Of a DNA stretch of 22,667 nucleotides, positions 1-22,093 are shown in pieces. The DNA lies in the IMG/VR virus record IMGVR_UViG_3300035120_000042, positions 1 through 22,667 of that record; one strand, written 5' to 3'. Position numbers and translations under genes: made by a program. This DNA comes from a virus. The stretch's first letter is position 1. Each line of letters starts with the position of its first letter. Below the pieces are notes generated by a model that was given only the letters and a program-made list of their open reading frames with translations, was not told where the DNA came from and ran no database searches.

Positions 1-1505
1 TGTGCCGGTTTATCGAGCGGTTGCCGCACACCAAAGGCGCCTGGGCGGCGCGGCGCGAGACGATCCGGCTCGAGGGCTGGCAATGCTTCGTGCTGGTCAA
101 CGCTTACGGCTGGCTGCGCAAGTCGGATGACAAGCGGCGCTTCCGCGAGGTGGTGACGATCGTTCCGCGGAAGAACGGCAAGAGCATCCTGTCGGCCGGC
201 GTCGGGCTGTACATGCTGTGCGCCGATGGCGAGCACGGGGCGGAAATATACTCGGGAGCCGGCACCGAGAAACAGGCGTGGGAAGTATTCCGGCCAGCGC
301 GGCAGATGGCCGAAGGGCGACCGGACCTGCGCCAGCATTTCGGGATTGCGGTCAATTCGTCGAACATCAACATCGTCGGCAACGGGTCGCGGTTCGAGCC
401 GATGATCGGCAAGCCGGGCGACGGCGCGATGCCGAGCTGCGCGATCATCGACGAGTACCACGAGCACGACAGCGCCGATCAATACGACACGATGCTGACC
501 GGCCAAGGCGCCCGCGAGCAGCCGCTGATGTGGGTGATCTCGACCGCGGGCGACAACCTGGCGGGCCCGTGCTTCGACAAGATTTTGACATGCCGGAAGA
601 TCCTCGAAGGCGTCATCGAGGACGACGAGAAGTTTTTCATCGAGTACACGGTCGATCCCGAGGACGATTGGACCGATCCCGCGGCGATCGCCAAGGCGAA
701 CCCGAACCTCGATGTGTCGGTGTCGGCCGAGTTCCTGCTGGCCCGCCAGCGGGAAGCAGTGCGCAACACTCGCGAGCAGGGCCGGTTCAAGACCAAGCAC
801 CTGAACCTTTGGGTCAACGCCCGCGCGGCCTACTTCAACATGCAGAGTTGGACGGCCTGCCGTAACCCGGAGCTGCGGCTCGAGGACTTCGAGGGGCAGC
901 GCTGCAAGATCGCGCTGGATTTGGCCTCGAAGCAGGACATCGCCGCGATGCAGATCCTGTTCGACCTCGGCGACGGCTCTTTCGCGACGTTCGGGCGGTA
1001 CTACCTGCCCGAGGACGTGGTCGAGGAGCCGGGCAAGGACCATTACCGCGGCTGGGCGCTGGCCGATCCGCCAAAGCTGATCCTGACGCAAGGCAATATG
1101 ATCGACTTCGGGCGGATTGAGGAAGACCTCGACGACATCAGGCGGAAGTACACCGTCGAGGAGATCACCTTCGATCCGGCGCAGGCGACGATGCTGATGA
1201 CCCGGCTGATGGCGAAGGGCGCCAACGTCTCGGAGTTTCAGCAGACCGCCGCCAATTTCACCGAGCCGATGAAGCAAGTGGCGGCGCTGATCGACGCCGG
1301 CCGCCTCAAGCACAATTGCGACGCCAACGACCCGATGACTTGGATGATGTCCAACGTCACCGCGCGGCTCGACGGCAAGGACCAGGTCTTCCCGCGCAAG
1401 GAACGGCCCGAGAACAAGATCGACGGGCCCGTGGCGCTGATCATGACCATGCGGCTGGCGATGATCGAAGTGCCGCCGATCAACATCGCGACGCTGATCG
1501 CCTAA
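1..1505 (+). CDS. phage terminase large subunit (5' end outside window)
   Basis: This is the ATP-driven DNA packaging motor and headful or cos nuclease, which docks on the portal. The frame is open from base 3 with no start in the window, so the N-terminus is missing; the TTG at 21 is probably internal, because the residues before it (CRFIER) continue the FIERLPHTKG motif usual in Terminase_1 proteins. Counting from that TTG, the Walker A motif VPRKNGKS is at 48-55, Walker B AIIDEYHE at 141-148 and the coupling motif STAG at 174-177. The RNase H-like nuclease has acidic residues at D300 (ALDLASKQD), D385 (TFDPAQA) and D469 (KIDGP). Both ATPase and nuclease halves look intact. The small terminase subunit would be expected upstream, outside the window. 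The family assignment is firm; the packaging mechanism (cos or pac) cannot be read from it. Confidence 0.95.
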   Translation, partial: CRFIERLPHTKGAWAARRETIRLEGWQCFVLVNAYGWLRKSDDKRRFREVVTIVPRKNGKSILSAGVGLYMLCADGEHGAEIYSGAGTEKQAWEVFRPARQMAEGRPDLRQHFGIAVNSSNINIVGNGSRFEPMIGKPGDGAMPSCAIIDEYHEHDSADQYDTMLTGQGAREQPLMWVISTAGDNLAGPCFDKILTCRKILEGVIEDDEKFFIEYTVDPEDDWTDPAAIAKANPNLDVSVSAEFLLARQREAVRNTREQGRFKTKHLNLWVNARAAYFNMQSWTACRNPELRLEDFEGQRCKIALDLASKQDIAAMQILFDLGDGSFATFGRYYLPEDVVEEPGKDHYRGWALADPPKLILTQGNMIDFGRIEEDLDDIRRKYTVEEITFDPAQATMLMTRLMAKGANVSEFQQTAANFTEPMKQVAALIDAGRLKHNCDANDPMTWMMSNVTARLDGKDQVFPRKERPENKIDGPVALIMTMRLAMIEVPPINIATLIA

Positions 1506-1524
1506 ACCCAATAGGTGCTGACAT

Positions 1525-2406
1525 ATGCCTGTGCTTGCCGTAGTCATTCCCGATCAAGGCACAATATCCGAGACAGTCGATCTCACGGGAGTTACCGCGG
1601 TCGTCGGCCTTATCATGCCGAATGACTGGACCGCGGCGGTGGTGACCGTGCAGGGGTCGGCGGATGGTGCTTTCTTTCATGATCTGATCGACGGCTTCAC
1701 CGGGAATGCACTTAGTTTCAACGTCCGGCCGGATTCGATGGGTATGATCAATCCCAACCGGCTGCGCAGTTGTGCAGCTATAAAATTGCGCTCCGGCACT
1801 CGGGACAATCCGGTGGTGCAGCAAGCGCTGCGCGAGTTCGGGCTCGTCGTAGAGGGGAATGTGCCATCACAGCCGGGCACAGGTACTTCTGCGCATGTAA
1901 TCGAGGATACCACCAACGGTTTTCACGGTATCGAGCAGTCGTTTCAAGCTCCGGGGCCGATGGCTTGCGCGATCACGGTTTGGCTGAAGTCGGACACAAG
2001 GCAAGCGGGCCTCGAGATATTCAACGGCGATGGCGGCGCGCGGGTGTATTTTGATCTCGCCGCCAACGAAATCTATGCCAATTCCGTCTACGGCGCCGGC
2101 TTTTCCGTCTTTGACCTCGCCGTCGAGGGGCCAGGTCCGAACGGCTGGTGGAAGTGCACCGCCTCGAACAATCTGACTCCGATCAGCGCTGCCCAGACGC
2201 TACGAATCGGGATGGACAAGGACAAGACTGGGTCCATCGCGTATCCCGGCGACGGCGCGAGTTTCGTGCAGGTCTGGCAACCCTCGCTGACGCTAGACGG
2301 CGGCGACAATGTTCTGCTCAGCGCGGACGATCTGACCAATCCGGCGTGGCAGCCGCGTGGCGCGTCGGTGGTGAACTTTCCTGACGATGTTCTTCCGGCA
2401 CCATGA
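1525..2406 (+). CDS. putative head-fibre/decoration protein with jelly-roll glycan-binding-like domain
   Basis: The product has 293 residues. Residues 1-115 form a beta-rich domain of a kind I recall in Rhizobiales phage structural proteins (motifs VTVQGSADG and KLRSGTRDNP). Residues 125-265 resemble the phage head-spike-fibre or carbohydrate-binding jelly roll: an ITVWLKS strand, a GWWKCT motif, and YPGDGASFVQVWQPSL, which matches the usual YxGDGxxGxxxWGAQLE ending. After it comes NVLLSADDLTNPAWQP, which looks like the opening motif of the same domain, as if a second copy began and was cut off. A weak Shine-Dalgarno (AGGTG, 1513-1517) precedes the ATG. The stop overlaps the protease start as ATGA. 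One 60-base line near 1741 is 53% GC, lower than the terminase gene, so it may be a later insertion. Glycan binding and head location are inferred. Confidence 0.55.
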   Translation: MPVLAVVIPDQGTISETVDLTGVTAVVGLIMPNDWTAAVVTVQGSADGAFFHDLIDGFTGNALSFNVRPDSMGMINPNRLRSCAAIKLRSGTRDNPVVQQALREFGLVVEGNVPSQPGTGTSAHVIEDTTNGFHGIEQSFQAPGPMACAITVWLKSDTRQAGLEIFNGDGGARVYFDLAANEIYANSVYGAGFSVFDLAVEGPGPNGWWKCTASNNLTPISAAQTLRIGMDKDKTGSIAYPGDGASFVQVWQPSLTLDGGDNVLLSADDLTNPAWQPRGASVVNFPDDVLPAP

Positions 2407-4373
2407 GTTCGCCATCGTTCGAGGCACCACAAATGATCCGCACCAAGCAAACCGCGGCGCCGCCGCCGAACGGCGACCCGCTGGAATTTGTCATGAGCGA
2501 CGACAGCGTCGACCGCATGGGCGACATCATCGAGGCCGATGGCTGGCTGCTCGACAACTTCCGCAAAAACCCGATCGCGCTCTTCGGGCATAACGCCGCC
2601 TTCCCGATCGGCAAGTGGAGCGAGGTCACCGTCCGTGGCAACCAGTTGATCGGCCGGTTGCAGTTGATGGACCCGGTTTCCGACCGGATGCGCGAGGTTC
2701 ACGCGGCAGTGGACGCCGGTGTTTTGCGCGCCGTCTCGGTCGGTTTTCACCCGAGCAAGTATGAACCGATTGAAGGCTCGAAGACCGGCGGCCTCCGCTT
2801 CACCGAGCAGGAGCTCGTCGAATGCTCGTTGGTCTCAGTACCCGCTAACCCGAATGCCCTCGCCCTGGCGAAGGCGCTCGGTATCTCTCCGCAAGGGCAG
2901 CGATTGATCTTCGGCGTGTCCGCCGATGGTGATCAAGAGCTGCGCCGACGCGGCTTTCATGGCGTGTCCGCCTCACAAGTCCCGCGAAAGCCTCAAGCCA
3001 TGAACCAACTCAGCGATAGGATTCAAACCGCGCAGGCCGAGCTCGTCGGTCTACAGGACCAATTGACCGCAACCGAGGATCTGACCCAGACGGCAGATCT
3101 CACCCAACGCATCGAGGAGATCAAGGACCAGATCTCGATCTACGCCCGCGCCGAGCGGGCGCTCGGCAGCGAGAGCGAGGCGATCACCGTCCCGGCCTCG
3201 CGCACGACCGTGCTGCCGCCCGGCTCGACACTCCCGGCGGCGGGGCCGAAGACTTGGGCTATGCCGAAGAAGCAGGAGGAGCCCGGCTACCTGTTCATCC
3301 GCCATTGCGTCGTCAGGGCGCTGTCGCATATCCAGAAAAAGCCCGAGGATCAGATCCTCGCCGAGCATTACGGGGATCGTGGTGACTTCGAAGTCACGAA
3401 GACCGTGCATGATTGGTATAGGCGGGCCGCCACCGCTCCCGCGACGACGACGACAACCGGATGGGCTGCCGAGCTTGCGCAGATCCAGTACGGCGAGTTT
3501 TTCGACATCCTGATGCCGGAGGGTATCTATCGGCCGCTCGCAGCGAAGGGTTTTCGCGCGACGCTCGGGCGATATGCGACGCTGTCGATGCCCACTCGTT
3601 CGGCGACGCCGACCGTGGCGGGGTCGTTCGTCGGCGAAGGGGCGCCGATCCCGGTCCGCCAGGCGGCGTTCCTCCCGGTCACCATCGGCCTCAAGAAGAT
3701 GGCGATCATCTGCTCTTACACGCGGGAGCTCGCCGAGCACTCGACGCCGCAGATCGAGGGGTTGCTGCGTAAGCTGATCAGCGAAGACACCGAAGTCGCG
3801 GTCGACACGACGCTGATCGACAACGTCGCGTCGTCGGCCATACGGCCTGCCGGGTTGCGCAATGGCGTGTCTGGCCTGACGGCGACTACCGGCGGCGGTT
3901 TTGCTGCTCTTCTCGGCGACATCAAGCAACTGGTCGGCGTCCTGTCGGCGGCCAATGCCTTGCGCGTCCCGGTCTGGATCATGAACCCGCAGCAGGCGAT
4001 CTCGATCTCGCTGACGATTAATTCCGGCGGGTTCTTCCCGTTCAAAGCGGAGATCGACAGCGGAATGCTGCAAGGTTACCCGGTCATCACGTCCAACACG
4101 GTGCCGCTGGGCACGGTGATAATCCTCAACGCCGACGACTTCATGTCGGTCACCGGGGATGATCCCCGATTTGACGTGTCGGACCAGGCCACGCTGCACT
4201 TTGAGGATACGACGCCGTTGCAGATTGGCACCGCCGGCAGCCCGCCGACCGTTGCGGCGCCCGTCCGCAACCTGTTCCAAACCGACAGCCTCGCGCTGCG
4301 GATGATCCTGCCGATGAACTGGGCGATGCGCCGAACCGGCGTCGTCGCGTGGGTTTCGAGCGTCACTTGGTAG
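2403..4373 (+). CDS. prohead protease-major capsid protein fusion (HK97 type)
   Basis: One 656-residue frame holds two normally separate proteins. Residues about 28-160 are a Peptidase_S78 prohead protease with H63 (FGHN), S112 (RAVSVGF) and the conserved ELVECSLVSVPANP segment near 138-150. Residues 200-260 are charged and likely coiled coil, like the delta scaffold domain. From about 345 to the end is the HK97-fold capsid protein, including FVGEGAPIPV at 409-418. Maturation presumably cuts before the capsid part, near the ATAPATTTTTG stretch (343-353), releasing scaffold and protease. The ATG at 2403 overlaps the previous stop as ATGA but has no clear ribosome site. The in-frame ATG at 2433 (M11) has GAGG eight bases upstream and may be the true start. 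Another in-frame ATG at 3000 (M200) could begin a capsid-only product, but its upstream sequence is weak. Assignment of both halves is firm. Confidence 0.93.
   Translation: MSSPSFEAPQMIRTKQTAAPPPNGDPLEFVMSDDSVDRMGDIIEADGWLLDNFRKNPIALFGHNAAFPIGKWSEVTVRGNQLIGRLQLMDPVSDRMREVHAAVDAGVLRAVSVGFHPSKYEPIEGSKTGGLRFTEQELVECSLVSVPANPNALALAKALGISPQGQRLIFGVSADGDQELRRRGFHGVSASQVPRKPQAMNQLSDRIQTAQAELVGLQDQLTATEDLTQTADLTQRIEEIKDQISIYARAERALGSESEAITVPASRTTVLPPGSTLPAAGPKTWAMPKKQEEPGYLFIRHCVVRALSHIQKKPEDQILAEHYGDRGDFEVTKTVHDWYRRAATAPATTTTTGWAAELAQIQYGEFFDILMPEGIYRPLAAKGFRATLGRYATLSMPTRSATPTVAGSFVGEGAPIPVRQAAFLPVTIGLKKMAIICSYTRELAEHSTPQIEGLLRKLISEDTEVAVDTTLIDNVASSAIRPAGLRNGVSGLTATTGGGFAALLGDIKQLVGVLSAANALRVPVWIMNPQQAISISLTINSGGFFPFKAEIDSGMLQGYPVITSNTVPLGTVIILNADDFMSVTGDDPRFDVSDQATLHFEDTTPLQIGTAGSPPTVAAPVRNLFQTDSLALRMILPMNWAMRRTGVVAWVSSVTW
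2421..2424 (+). promoter_or_regulatory. ribosome binding site favouring the protease-capsid start at 2433
   Basis: GAGG lies eight bases before the in-frame ATG at 2433. The first ATG of the frame, at 2403, has no purine-rich motif in front of it and would depend on coupling with the upstream gene through the ATGA overlap. Both starts remain possible; the conserved protease domain begins after either one. Confidence 0.4.
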
Positions 4374-4395
4374 CACGACGGTACACATGGCGTAT

Positions 4396-4421
4396 TCCGG
4401 CGCAGTGGTTGCTGCGCCGGA
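4396..4421 (+). terminator. perfect 10-bp GC-rich hairpin after the capsid gene (attenuator or mRNA-stability element)
   Basis: TCCGGCGCAG at 4396-4405 pairs without mismatch with CTGCGCCGGA at 4412-4421 across a 6-base loop (TGGTTG). It sits in the 72-base gap between the capsid stop and the next gene, one of the few gaps in the window. There is no U-tract after the stem (ATCGTCACC follows), so a classical rho-independent terminator is unlikely. A partial terminator, RNase-processing barrier or 3' stabiliser that sets capsid mRNA level apart from downstream genes fits better. The stem is seen directly; its function is inferred. Confidence 0.55.
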
Positions 4422-4433
4422 TCGTCACCAAAC

Positions 4434-4438
4434 AGGAG
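4434..4438 (+). promoter_or_regulatory. strong Shine-Dalgarno for the Ig-like decoration gene
   Basis: AGGAG stands seven bases before the ATG at 4446, just downstream of the hairpin. A strong independent ribosome site suggests the following protein is needed in quantity, as a capsid decoration protein would be. Confidence 0.6.
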
Positions 4439-4445
4439 CACGCTG

Positions 4446-5006
4446 ATGACGACCGAAGACCAGTACCGCGCCGACCAGAAAGTTCGCGCCGAGCTGACCG
4501 AGCAGACGCTGAAGGTGACATCGCAAAGCCAGCCGACGCCAACGCAGGAGGAAAACGACCTGCTCCGGCTCGGGCTGATGCACCCGGACGAAAAGGTAAA
4601 CCCTGACAATCCGGAGATGCCGTCGCTGGCGGTCCAGCAGGCGATGGTCGAGAAAGCACAACCGGCCGCTAGTCATCAGCCAGTGCGTCCTGGCGGCGGC
4701 GCACCGGCTGCGGGCGCACCGACCAATCGCGACGTGCCGCACCTCCAGGGGAATGGCGCCGTTGGCGAGACGCTGACCTGCACCAAGGGGAACTGGAACG
4801 GCGAGCCGACGAGCTACGCTTACGCCTGGAAGAGCAACGCCGCAGCGGTCGGTGGCACCGGAGACACCTACACGGTCGCCGAGAGCGACGTCGGGCATAG
4901 CATCACCTGCGTCGTGACGGCGACCAATGCCGCCGGCTCGACGACCGCACCGCCGTCAAACGCTGTCGCGGTCAACGGAGCGAGTCGCGGGGCAGCCCGG
5001 CGGTAA
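4446..5006 (+). CDS. putative Ig-like capsid decoration protein
   Basis: The 186-residue product has a polar N-terminal part (1-75), a Pro/Gly/Ala linker (about 76-93) and a C-terminal domain (about 94-178) with the pattern of bacterial and phage Ig-like folds: GETLTCTKGNWNG, YAYAWK, YTVAESDVGHSITCVVTATN. The two cysteines in LTC and ITC are placed as in Ig sandwiches. Ig-like domains are common on phage capsid and tail surfaces, where they bind surface glycans weakly. Its place directly after the capsid gene, with its own strong ribosome site, fits a decoration protein: the N-terminal part would bind the capsid and the Ig domain would face out. The fold call is fairly good; the location on the capsid is inferred from gene order. 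No signal peptide is seen. Confidence 0.6.
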   Translation: MTTEDQYRADQKVRAELTEQTLKVTSQSQPTPTQEENDLLRLGLMHPDEKVNPDNPEMPSLAVQQAMVEKAQPAASHQPVRPGGGAPAAGAPTNRDVPHLQGNGAVGETLTCTKGNWNGEPTSYAYAWKSNAAAVGGTGDTYTVAESDVGHSITCVVTATNAAGSTTAPPSNAVAVNGASRGAARR

Positions 5007-5012
5007 AGCTCG

Positions 5013-6431
5013 GTGGCGCAATCGACTGCCCTAGAGCGGGTACGAAGCGCGGCGAGCCGTATCTTCCGGCCGCGCCTCAAGGAAGCCATCGGCGGCGGCT
5101 GGCGGCTGCCGCTCGGTGGCGGCTTTATCCCCGCCACTTGGCCGACGAACTGGTGGCAATCCGGCCATAACCCGCTGCCCTATGGCGGCTCGGCGGTGGT
5201 CTACGCCTGCCGCTCAGCCTATTCGCAAACGATCGCGATGTGCCCACCCGCGCATTGGCAGAGCGACGGCAAGGGCGGCCGCGAGCGGGTGAAGACCTCG
5301 GCGCTGTCGCGCGTCCTGCGGCGCCCTAACACCTATCAGTCGCCCTCGGACTTCTTTCTCTACTTGACCGATTGCCTCTACGGCGAGGGCGCGGCCTTCG
5401 GGCTGGCGCTACGCAATGCGCGTTTTGAGATCACCGAAATTCACCTGATGAACCCGCGGCACTGTTGGCCGCGCGTCGCACAGAACGGCGAGGTTTTTTA
5501 TACGCTCGCCGGCAACCATGTCGTCGAGCGCTTATTCGCCGACAACCAGGTGTTCCTCGAAAGCGTCCCGGCGCGCGATGTCCTGCATGTGCGGCTGCCC
5601 GACCAGCGCTATCCGCTGCGCGGCATCCCGCCGCTCGAATCGGCACTGCTCGAACTCGGGGTCTCAAGTGCGATGATGGCGCAGGCGCTGGCCTACGCCA
5701 GCAACCAGGGACGGCCGAGCGGCGTCCTGCAAACCGACGCGAGCTTCCACGCCAACCCCGAGGCGGTGCGGCAGCTCCGCGCGAGCTGGAACGAGCAGAC
5801 CCAAGGCATCAACGTCGGCGGCACGCCGATCCTGACGGACGGGCTGAAGTGGGCGCCGGCGGTGATGAACAGCCGCGACGCGCAGCTTGCCGAGGTACTG
5901 CAAATCTCCGACCAGCGTATCGCTACCGCGTACCGCGTACCGCTGCCCATGCTCAGCCTGATGAACAGTCAGGGGCCACAGGCGTCGACCGAGAGCCTGA
6001 TGGCGCAATGGGTGTCGACCGGCCTCGGTTTCGCCGCCAATCACATCGAGGACGCGTTCGGGCGGCTCTTCGCGCTCGCCGGCTGGCCGGACGATTACCT
6101 CGAGCTCGATCTCGAAGCGCTGTTGCGGGCCAATTTCAAGGATAGGATCGCGGCATTGGCGCAGGGCGTGCAGGGCGGGATCTTCAGCCCCAACGAGGCC
6201 AGGGCAAAAGAAGATCTGCCGGCGATGGCGTTTGGCGACGAGCCGCGCGTCCAGCAGCAGGTCGTCCCGCTCAGCGCGTGGGCCAAGGCGCCGCCGGCGA
6301 CACCCGCACCCAACGCGCCGGCCGCCGCGCCACCAGCGGACGCTCCCGCAGCCGACGATGGGAGTGGCGATGCCGTCGATCAATCCAAGGCCCTCACCGC
6401 CCGGTTCCGGCGACGCGCAGCAGCCCAATGA
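5013..6431 (+). CDS. HK97-family portal protein
   Basis: The portal forms the dodecameric ring at one capsid vertex through which DNA is packaged and to which the neck attaches. The GTG start at 5013 follows the previous stop by six bases and gives 472 residues, a usual length for the family. Recognisable stretches are [53 protein letters not shown], and the helical core [18 protein letters not shown] with [17 protein letters not shown] near the end, all of which follow HK97 portal sequences. The last 60 or so residues are Pro/Ala-rich and then basic. The gene normally lies directly after the terminase; here it is downstream of the capsid gene. Its stop overlaps the next ATG as ATGA. Confidence 0.93.
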
Positions 6432-7300
6432 CGACCACAATCTCGCCGCTTGAGGCGCTCGCCGACGAGCTCGGCGACTTCGCCGCGCGCATCGAGCGCG
6501 ACCTGAAGCTGTCGGTCGGCACCATGCTCGCCGAGCTTCGGGAAGAGATGTCCGCACTGCGAGCCAGCCGGGCCGAAACCGAGTTGCGCCTCGATCGCGC
6601 CGTGGCGGCAAAACTCGCTGAGTTACAGGATGGGCCACAGGGGCCGCAGGGCGAGCGCGGGGAGCGGGGAGAAGCTGGGGAGGCTATCGAGGGGCCGCCA
6701 GGCGTTCAGGGCATTCCTGGGCCGCCTGGCGCGCCCGGCGAGGCCGGTGCCCGAGGGGAACCCGGTCCGATCGGCGAAACCGGACCCGCCGGCCCACCCG
6801 GAGAAGCCGGCCCGCCGGGGAAGTTTATCCCGCCGAAGGCGTGGGCGAAGGGCATCCACTACGAGTGCGCGCTGGTCACGCATGGCGGCTCGACTTGGTG
6901 CGCGGCTCGGGATACCGCCGAGGAACCGCCGCACGACGATTGGATCGTCGTCGCGGCCTGCGGCGAGGCTCCCTACGTCGGCGATGTTCTCGGACTTTTT
7001 GACCCGAAAGGTGCGTATCGGAAGTTCGACCTGGTCACGTTCAACGGCAGCGAGTGGCGGGCCAAGCGGGATAATCCCGGCCCGCTGCCGGGCGACGGCT
7101 GGCAATTGGCGGGGCAGGCCGGCAGCCGCGGCAAGTCCGGAGACCGCGGGGAACGCGGCGACCGCGGTCCGGCCGGTCCATCGATCATCGATTGGGCGAT
7201 GAAGGGCTATCATGCGGTGCCGATCATGAGCGACGGTAGCCTCGGGCCAGCGCTCGATCTGCGCGAGGTGTTCGAGCTCTACCATGCCGAGCGCGTCTGA
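6428..7300 (+). CDS. collagen-like structural protein with two chitin-binding-like modules
   Basis: The start is placed at the ATG overlapping the portal stop (ATGA), giving 290 residues. Residues 1-65 are charged and probably coiled coil. Residues 69-131 are Gly-X-Y triplets with one interruption (EAIEG), and residues 229-250 are a second Gly-X-Y block. Between them are two modules of roughly 40 residues: [21 protein letters not shown] with a following DDW, and [20 protein letters not shown] with a following DGW. Their Y-D/L-V-x-W spacing recalls CBM5/12 chitin-binding folds used in phage fibres. Collagen-like regions in phage proteins usually form trimeric stalks. A neck whisker or head fibre is plausible given its place between portal and connector. 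Residues 251-290 look globular. The repeats are directly visible; the binding role is inferred. Confidence 0.7.
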
Positions 7301-21475: not shown

Positions 21476-22093
21476 ATGACATCAGCGATCGACGCCAGTA
21501 AGCCGGTGGCCGGCAGTCCGACGACACAGAGCGTGCGGGATAACTTTGCCGCCGCGGCGTCGGAAATCAGCGCGCTGCAAGCCGTAACGGTTGGCGGTCC
21601 CTATCTGCCGCTTGGCGGCACACTAACAGCCAATTTTTCCTGTAATGACATTACGGTCGGCGGTAGCGGCGGGGTCGCCGGCAACTTGACCCTGTCCGGC
21701 AATCTCGGCGCGAACCACGGCACCTTTGGCGGCAATCTCGGCGTCGGGCTGGTGGTGTCGGTCTCTGGCAACATCAATTGCGCTGGCACCGTTACCTGCA
21801 ACAACCTCGTGCAAACCTCGGATGACCGGGTCAAGGCAGACGTCGAGCCGCTCGCCGCCGGGACCACGCTCGATGCTATCAAGGGTCTGCGTCCGGTTAG
21901 CTACTTCCTGCGGGATAGCGAGCAACGCTCGTTCGGGTTTCTCGCCTCCGAGATCGCGCAGACCCCATTGCACGGGGCGGTTTATCACAATGAAGCGGAC
22001 GGTCTCGATTACGTCAGCTATAGCCATCTCCTGGCCGCGGCGATCGGCGCGATCCAGCAGCTTGAGGCGCGGCTCGCGGCGCTCGGTGGCTGA
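21476..22093 (+). CDS. tail fibre with C-terminal S74 intramolecular chaperone (self-cleaving)
   Basis: The 205-residue product has an N-terminal attachment segment (DASKPVAGSPTTQSVRDNF, 6-24), a short Gly-rich beta shaft at about 60-112 (for example LTLSGNLGANHGTFGGNLGV) and a C-terminal Peptidase_S74 domain. The S74 signature is TSDDRVK at 114-120, giving the catalytic pair S115 and K120; cleavage is expected just before S115. SFGFLASEIAQTPLHGAV (152-169) and YVSYSHLLAAAIGAIQQLEA (179-198) complete the family pattern. S74 domains make fibres fold as trimers and then cut themselves off. After cleavage only about 114 residues would remain, which is short. A purine-rich site (GAGAAGGGCAGG, 21462-21473) precedes the ATG. 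Confidence 0.85.
   Translation: MTSAIDASKPVAGSPTTQSVRDNFAAAASEISALQAVTVGGPYLPLGGTLTANFSCNDITVGGSGGVAGNLTLSGNLGANHGTFGGNLGVGLVVSVSGNINCAGTVTCNNLVQTSDDRVKADVEPLAAGTTLDAIKGLRPVSYFLRDSEQRSFGFLASEIAQTPLHGAVYHNEADGLDYVSYSHLLAAAIGAIQQLEARLAALGG

Follow-up and report, generated by a model that had tools for sequence, protein, structure and literature searches.

The 22.7-kb viral record IMGVR_UViG_3300035120_000042 of IMG/VR (hereafter the window, meaning the whole stretch of 22,667 nucleotides analysed) carries at positions 2403–4373 of the plus strand a single stop-free reading frame of 656 amino acids plus stop. In this frame an S78 protease is followed by a linker, a coiled coil and an HK97-type capsid domain; the coordinates of its features given below are all on the plus strand. 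Comparison with its relatives suggests that the frame very probably comprises two nested genes: one starting at 2433 and encoding a protease-scaffold-capsid chain, the other starting at the in-frame ATG 3000 and encoding a scaffold-capsid chain, and the two products would co-assemble. The protease-capsid fusion is of an already known kind; what is new is the comparative evidence for a second gene hidden inside the fused frame.

The domain order proposed by the first-pass annotation was borne out by profile searches. Pfam recognised Peptidase_S78 (PF04586) at residues 58–153 with 31.2 bits (cut-off 21) and Phage_capsid (PF05065) at residues 392–595 with 57.3 bits (cut-off 24.2), and the family phrog_617, ‘major head protein’, matched residues 25–656 with an E-value of 7.8e-83. 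A capsid chain, 8gta_A, was also matched by profile (E 2.6e-07). From Pfam together with a 23-sequence alignment that includes the window, the protease domain spans approximately residues 28–165 (2484–2897); from Pfam and the profile match, the capsid domain spans approximately residues 350–656 (3450–4370). H63 and S112, picked out earlier as protease residues, are indeed invariant in these 23 sequences, as is M200. Between the two domains lie the linker (residues 166–199, 2898–2999), in which the peptide is variable and synonymous-codon conservation reaches the maximum of the gene, and a coiled-coil, delta-like region (about residues 200–290, 3000–3272) that would act as a scaffold. The helices at 202–223 and 227–255 were predicted by a structure model built from the 23 sequences. 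This model is poor, with a mean predicted local distance difference test score (pLDDT) of 46.8, and its helix pattern was the sole part used; fold comparison of the same low-confidence model ranked HK97 chains at the top, with a best E-value of 0.086.

Relatives were collected in three scans of viral contigs, keeping the best 80 of 127, the best 80 of at least 583 and the best 80 of at least 564 confirmed relatives. The first scan gave 80 relatives with 57–100% identity to the window (L002–L006 being identical to it), of which, together with the window, 47 representatives at <95% identity were retained. The latter two gave 156 further loci, at least three of which repeat frames of the first set. 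The linker is open in 80/80 relatives of the first scan: the sole stop among them belongs to L022 and falls on codon 4 of the match, away from the linker, and this sequence was trimmed to begin past it. Full-length loci from bacterial assemblies (L082–L104; Bradyrhizobium, Sphingomonas, Ensifer, Mesorhizobium, Devosia and others) are likewise open in 22 of 23 cases, L103 carrying a stop; this count covers full-length frames and leaves aside L105–L109, where the protease part alone is present, and L110, where the frame stops early. A sequencing error masking a linker stop, which the first-pass annotation had raised, is excluded by these counts. The other circumstance that it had named as damaging, separate protease and capsid proteins in all relatives with the same DNA, does not apply as worded: the closest 80/80 are fused, and split forms are more distant. 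Its statement that such fusions are uncommon does not fit this family, given the at least 583 and at least 564 confirmed relatives in two pattern scans, while its statement that they are known holds, because phrog_617, a dedicated NCBIfam fusion model and two archaeal proviruses (PMC6563490, from the part of the article consulted) all describe this kind of gene.

The candidate internal start, ATG 3000–3002 (M200; predicted product residues 200–656, 457 amino acids), is conserved in an otherwise variable environment. Methionine occupies this position in 81/81 rows (window plus 80 relatives). The flanking residues 197–199 and 201 show only 26–30% identity among the 47 representatives, residues 195–196 show 68% and residues 202–203 show 45–53%. 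At the aligned codon of the 156 further loci we found ATG in 143, GTG in 10 and another codon in three (L190, L284 and L323), where an ATG stands one codon away as judged by eye; counted as 124 clusters at <95% identity, 119 have ATG and five have GTG. Thus, in this set, all rows without methionine in or adjoining the column carry valine encoded by GTG (10/10), and the same occurs in L085, with CGAAAG upstream. As GTG makes up only 33% of the valine codons in the frames of the 156 loci, this replacement points to a start codon instead of a required methionine. Since the GTG rows form groups, about five or six changes should be counted and not eleven.

A ribosome-binding signal accompanies this codon in the family. 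In the window, a weak Shine–Dalgarno (SD)-like box, GAAAG (2986–2990), precedes the ATG by 9 nucleotides. In the DNA alignment (46 of the 47 rows, L067 being omitted), the purine block at this place is mostly GAAAG, with CAGGA in other rows and a few departures, and the nucleotides upstream of M200 are more conserved than the residues. The R195 codon, which creates the GAAAG, is CGA in 30/47 representatives although CGA accounts for 11.5% of arginine codons. An SD-like motif was detected at 121/156 internal starts versus 144/2310 other in-frame ATGs, and the mean pairing energy, computed here and below against a 16S ribosomal RNA tail, was −6.6 versus −3.4 kcal/mol. We further used a 73-row set composed of the 47 representatives, 21 genome loci, L117 and four GenBank phages, leaving out L087 (a near-copy of L086) and the split L103. 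Here the internal start averaged −5.4 kcal/mol, compared to −3.3 for 1081 in-frame ATGs elsewhere and −3.7 for 4380 codons taken at random. The four phages, IME307, SP-016, RHph_X2_26 and JLK-2012, are only 25–31% identical to the window, and each has a methionine after an SD-like motif at the start of the scaffold (AGGAGG, AAAAAAGGA, AAAGGAG and AAGGA, respectively).

Split forms of the gene appear to use the same position. In L103, from Parahaliea mediterranea, a TAG in the linker splits the frame four codons before the aligned methionine; an AGGAG overlaps this TAG, and the stand-alone capsid gene begins at the M200 equivalent. Matches to phrog_617 were found in 6 of 274 and 18 of 289 sampled genomes. 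Among them, choosing the likely start methionine by eye, we found that L144, L150, L151, L157 and L159 are stop-free with a methionine and SD-like layout at the scaffold start (in L159 the match covers just the initial part of the family), that the layout of L145 is doubtful, and that others, such as L155, L160 and L169, are split by stops shortly upstream of the methionine. On the simplest reading, fused and split forms would share one capsid start, the fused form merely being without the stop.

Taken together, these results give good support to the in-frame ATG at 3000 that the first-pass annotation had offered as a possible start, and this support comes from conservation. Several observations nonetheless weigh against it. 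The upstream signal had been described as weak, which is true of the window taken alone (−4.3 kcal/mol), and four other internal methionines of its frame pair better by energy alone (M555 −6.6, M89 −5.2, M287 −5.0 and M96 −4.7 kcal/mol). The searched SD motif is missing from 35/156 loci, and the synonymous-recoding test reaches significance (p ≤ 0.05) for just 10/73 rows taken singly. Four more methionines (31, 527, 634 and 638) never vary among the 47 representatives, although they lie in conserved protein stretches. Finally, the rows are related, so that p-values and counts overstate their independence.

One could ask whether a single polyprotein is made, the protease cleaving itself off soon after translation and a 1:1 ratio being tolerated. 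The continuous frame and the weak internal SD of the window agree with this, as does the fact that S78 proteases cleave procapsid proteins; self-cutting in the linker would, however, be compatible with nested translation as well. We consider such a polyprotein improbable, as it leaves unexplained an invariant methionine in a variable linker, its replacement by GTG only and an SD-like motif at a near-fixed spacing. Alternatively, Met200 could be kept for a reason of the protein, as a helix start or a cleavage site. It does stand at the N-terminal end of the predicted coiled coil, and the four other invariant methionines of the frame show that such conservation is not peculiar to it. But a protein-level requirement does not account for valine appearing through GTG, for upstream nucleotides conserved above the residues, or for the split L103 capsid gene opening with this very codon, and it appears very improbable. 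An overlapping gene in another frame was ruled out, all five alternative frames of a 180-nucleotide stretch carrying stops in 33 to 47 of the 47 rows.

The outer start is probably at 2433 (ATG 2433–2435, M11), preceded by a likely ribosome-binding site GAGG at 2421–2424 (−5.9 kcal/mol). An ATG, GTG or TTG 18–20 codons ahead of a conserved FVMSD motif is present in 45/47 representatives, the window included, where it corresponds to 2433. The first-pass annotation opened the gene at 2403, and this is probably wrong: within the final four candidates listed, none of the 46 remaining representatives showed a start at that distance, while the identical loci L002–L006 naturally have it. In the window, the 2403 ATG shares bases with the stop codon that ends the frame before it (ATGA).

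With a fused frame, a conserved internal start and, in the family, a ribosome-binding site brought out by sequence comparison, we infer how the nested genes could work. Translation from 2433 would give the protease-scaffold-capsid chain of 646 amino acids, and translation from ATG 3000 would give the shorter scaffold-capsid chain, probably the main building block. Long and short chains would co-assemble through their common scaffold and capsid parts. In HK97, the N-terminal scaffold end points to the procapsid interior; long chains would therefore bring the protease inside, where, after assembly, it would excise itself and the scaffold. The forced 1:1 ratio of protease to capsid, which the first-pass annotation expected barring internal initiation or rapid self-cleavage, is probably unfounded, because the internal start is conserved, ribosome-binding motifs accompany it in the family and the L103 capsid gene starts there. 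The ratio is not predictable from the SD sequences, since those of the outer and the internal start have about the same strength. If the internal start is used, the protease dose inside the head is simply explained, a minority of capsid chains importing the enzyme, and the annotation of a large phage gene family is wrong, as the fused genes that we opened are annotated as one protein.

The conservation of the linker has a second source. All 17 top 7-codon windows for synonymous conservation, in an analysis that set aside closely related pairs by its own threshold, fall within codons 162–196, and the constraint is mostly due to two 12-nucleotide units of the form GGC-GNG-NNN-GCC in the close set. 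In the window both read GGC-GTGTCC-GCC and could fold as hairpins with identical loops (hairpin 1, 2913–2924; hairpin 2, 2961–2972). As read from the best pairs listed, the repeat pair occurs in 68/73 rows (the stem of L020 is imperfect); it is missing in L101 and L120–L123 by a whole-codon search, which gives spacings in multiples of 3 by construction. A strict, frame-independent scan of the 156 loci detected it in 105, versus 1/156 in a control stretch, with the same codon phase in 102/105 pairs and a different one in 3. RNAalifold on the linker alignment predicted just this pair of hairpins, adding one outer base pair to hairpin 2, though the covariation term was small (−0.29 kcal/mol).

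The two copies match each other within a phage more than they match those of other phages. Among the 47 representatives, in a version of the test without match filter, the 6-nucleotide cores differed by a mean of 0.70 mismatches of 6 within a phage and were identical in 22/47, compared to 2.58 mismatches and 1.4% identical between phages at <65% identity; 0 of 10,000 shuffles reached the observed within-phage match. Where the third codon specifies the same residue in both copies, the same codon is used (30/30). Similarity of the 12-mers between genomes barely tracks protein similarity (r 0.12–0.22), whereas the copies track each other (r 0.65). Stem pairs also change together. Pair 2–11 is G-C in 119, C-G in 42, T-A in 2 and A-T in 1 of 164 distinct copy-1 units, taken from rows preselected for complementary stems and with the 42 C-G units possibly of one lineage; pair 3–10 is C-G and once G-C, and the outer pair of copy 1 displays no such compensation. 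Stem changes in L033, L039, L084 and L088 are visible without the complementarity filter. In 43 rows the stems differ between copies and the loops agree (6/6 in 12, 5/6 in 25 and 4/6 in 6), with a loop match of 5.1 of 6 within a genome versus 3.6 between genomes; the filter behind these numbers required complementary stems, a loop match of at least 4/6 and the same frame, which inflates both stem counts and loop match.

In our judgement, the loops would most likely be read by one partner. That the hairpins control the internal start is a guess based on where they lie, and it is weakened by hairpin 2 beginning 26–27 codons before the start in L091, L094, L096, L097 and L100 instead of the usual 15 or so. 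We tentatively propose, at somewhat less than even chances, that these elements are a new cis-acting RNA (or DNA) element in which a single sequence-specific reader, probably a phage protein or RNA, sets the output of capsid versus protease form, the loops forming a code specific to each phage that evolves quickly with the two copies kept in step. The paired hairpins would then represent a novel type of control element within a coding region, with an unusual pattern of evolution. It is also conceivable, but rather unlikely, that they are a functionless by-product, either short repeats that slippage or gene conversion has made alike or traces left by an insertion long ago. Between close relatives (>90% identity), differences are mostly confined to one of the two copies, among the 42 pairs at 80% or more identity there are 60 shared changes and 74 confined to one copy, and both the spacing of the copies and their distance to the start vary, as would be expected of such remnants. 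Against this, the stems stay complementary while changing, the loops agree even where stems differ, and the codon constraint is strong, with rare codons kept. A programmed bypass, with ribosomes hopping from the first repeat to the second, is hardly to be expected: the matched repeats open with a glycine codon, like known bypass sites, but with nearly all repeat pairs in phase and the frame open between them a hop is unnecessary.

A peptide-level explanation, with two G-x-x-A protease sites, was rejected because the GGC, GCC and rare CCA/TCA codons are themselves constrained and some rows with A-x-x-G keep the stem. Pairing of the loops with nearby sequence was rejected as well, the loop complement within 300 nucleotides being depleted and not enriched (2/52; permuted mean 6.3, sd 2.1). 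Neither a further copy of the repeat nor a complementary partner recurred at a consistent place in 8 viral records (excluding the last 569 bases of G010), which may be incomplete, or in 80 kb of one bacterial genome; scattered copies do occur, such as an exact one at position 39141 of G003 and several carrying a single mismatch, and likewise in some loci. Single-sequence folding of the linker was unconvincing (z −1.74 and −0.60 for two stretches of the window, +0.65 for L009). No Rfam family was found for the linker, the one match in window 2700–3200 lying on the other strand at 3131–3200 (E 0.44; 14.4 bits, the gathering score being 100). Correlations of the repeats with any one protein domain were weak, the largest partial r being 0.18.

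Protease and capsid seem to have evolved in part separately. Across the 47 representatives, identities of the protease (residues 25–165 of the window's frame) correlated with those of the capsid (350–656) at 0.58, compared to 0.85 between scaffold (200–290) and capsid, and L028 and L052, for example, are 92% identical in the protease and 68% in the capsid. This suggests exchange near the linker.

The surrounding genes (21–6431) are ordered terminase, unmatched frame, protease/capsid, unknown and portal, the portal thus following the capsid gene. The unmatched frame at 1525–2406 (293 amino acids) resembled neither a Pfam nor a PHROG family at E 0.001. Beyond the portal gene, the frame at 6278–7300 contains collagen-like Gly-X-Y repeats, with a similar frame in L117, and the protein encoded at 21476–22093 ends in a Peptidase_S74 intramolecular chaperone domain.

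Fused genes of this type occur in GenBank phages. The same protease-linker-capsid frame is found in the phrog_617 phages IME307 (Pseudomonas), JLK-2012 (Escherichia), SP-016 (Salmonella) and RHph_X2_26 (Rhizobium), with the terminase large subunit directly upstream and the portal downstream; Pseudomonas PAJU2 is known here as a search match only. These four phages (L120–L123) differ from the window in that the identity noted above extends over 61–96% of the query and no twin hairpins were found in them, and their gene is annotated as one protein. The NCBIfam model NF045541, ‘prohead protease/major capsid protein fusion protein’, describes the same kind of fusion by its name and matches residues 53–246 (E 8.4e-13), the window scoring 47.8 bits, below the curated cut-off of 525. 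In archaea, the thaumarchaeal proviruses NCAV2-Pro1 and NitIsl-Pro1 have a prohead protease fused to the capsid protein, the consulted part of the article mentioning no internal start (PMC6563490). Among the titles and abstract openings listed by full-text literature searches, none describes an internal start in such fusions, which does not establish its absence from print.

The window shares with HK97 the S78 protease and, by prediction, the N-terminal delta-type scaffold and the capsid fold. It differs in that the HK97 protease, gp4, is encoded by a separate gene, gp5 combining delta-type scaffold and HK97-fold capsid. The closest parallels in working, with no relatedness claimed, are lambda C/Nu3 and herpesvirus UL26/UL26.5, where a protease-scaffold chain is accompanied by a nested in-frame product without protease. 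A conserved in-frame internal start, as expected of a C/Nu3-like arrangement, is seen here at the sequence level. In lambda and herpesvirus, however, the nested product is scaffold alone, whereas here it would be scaffold plus capsid.

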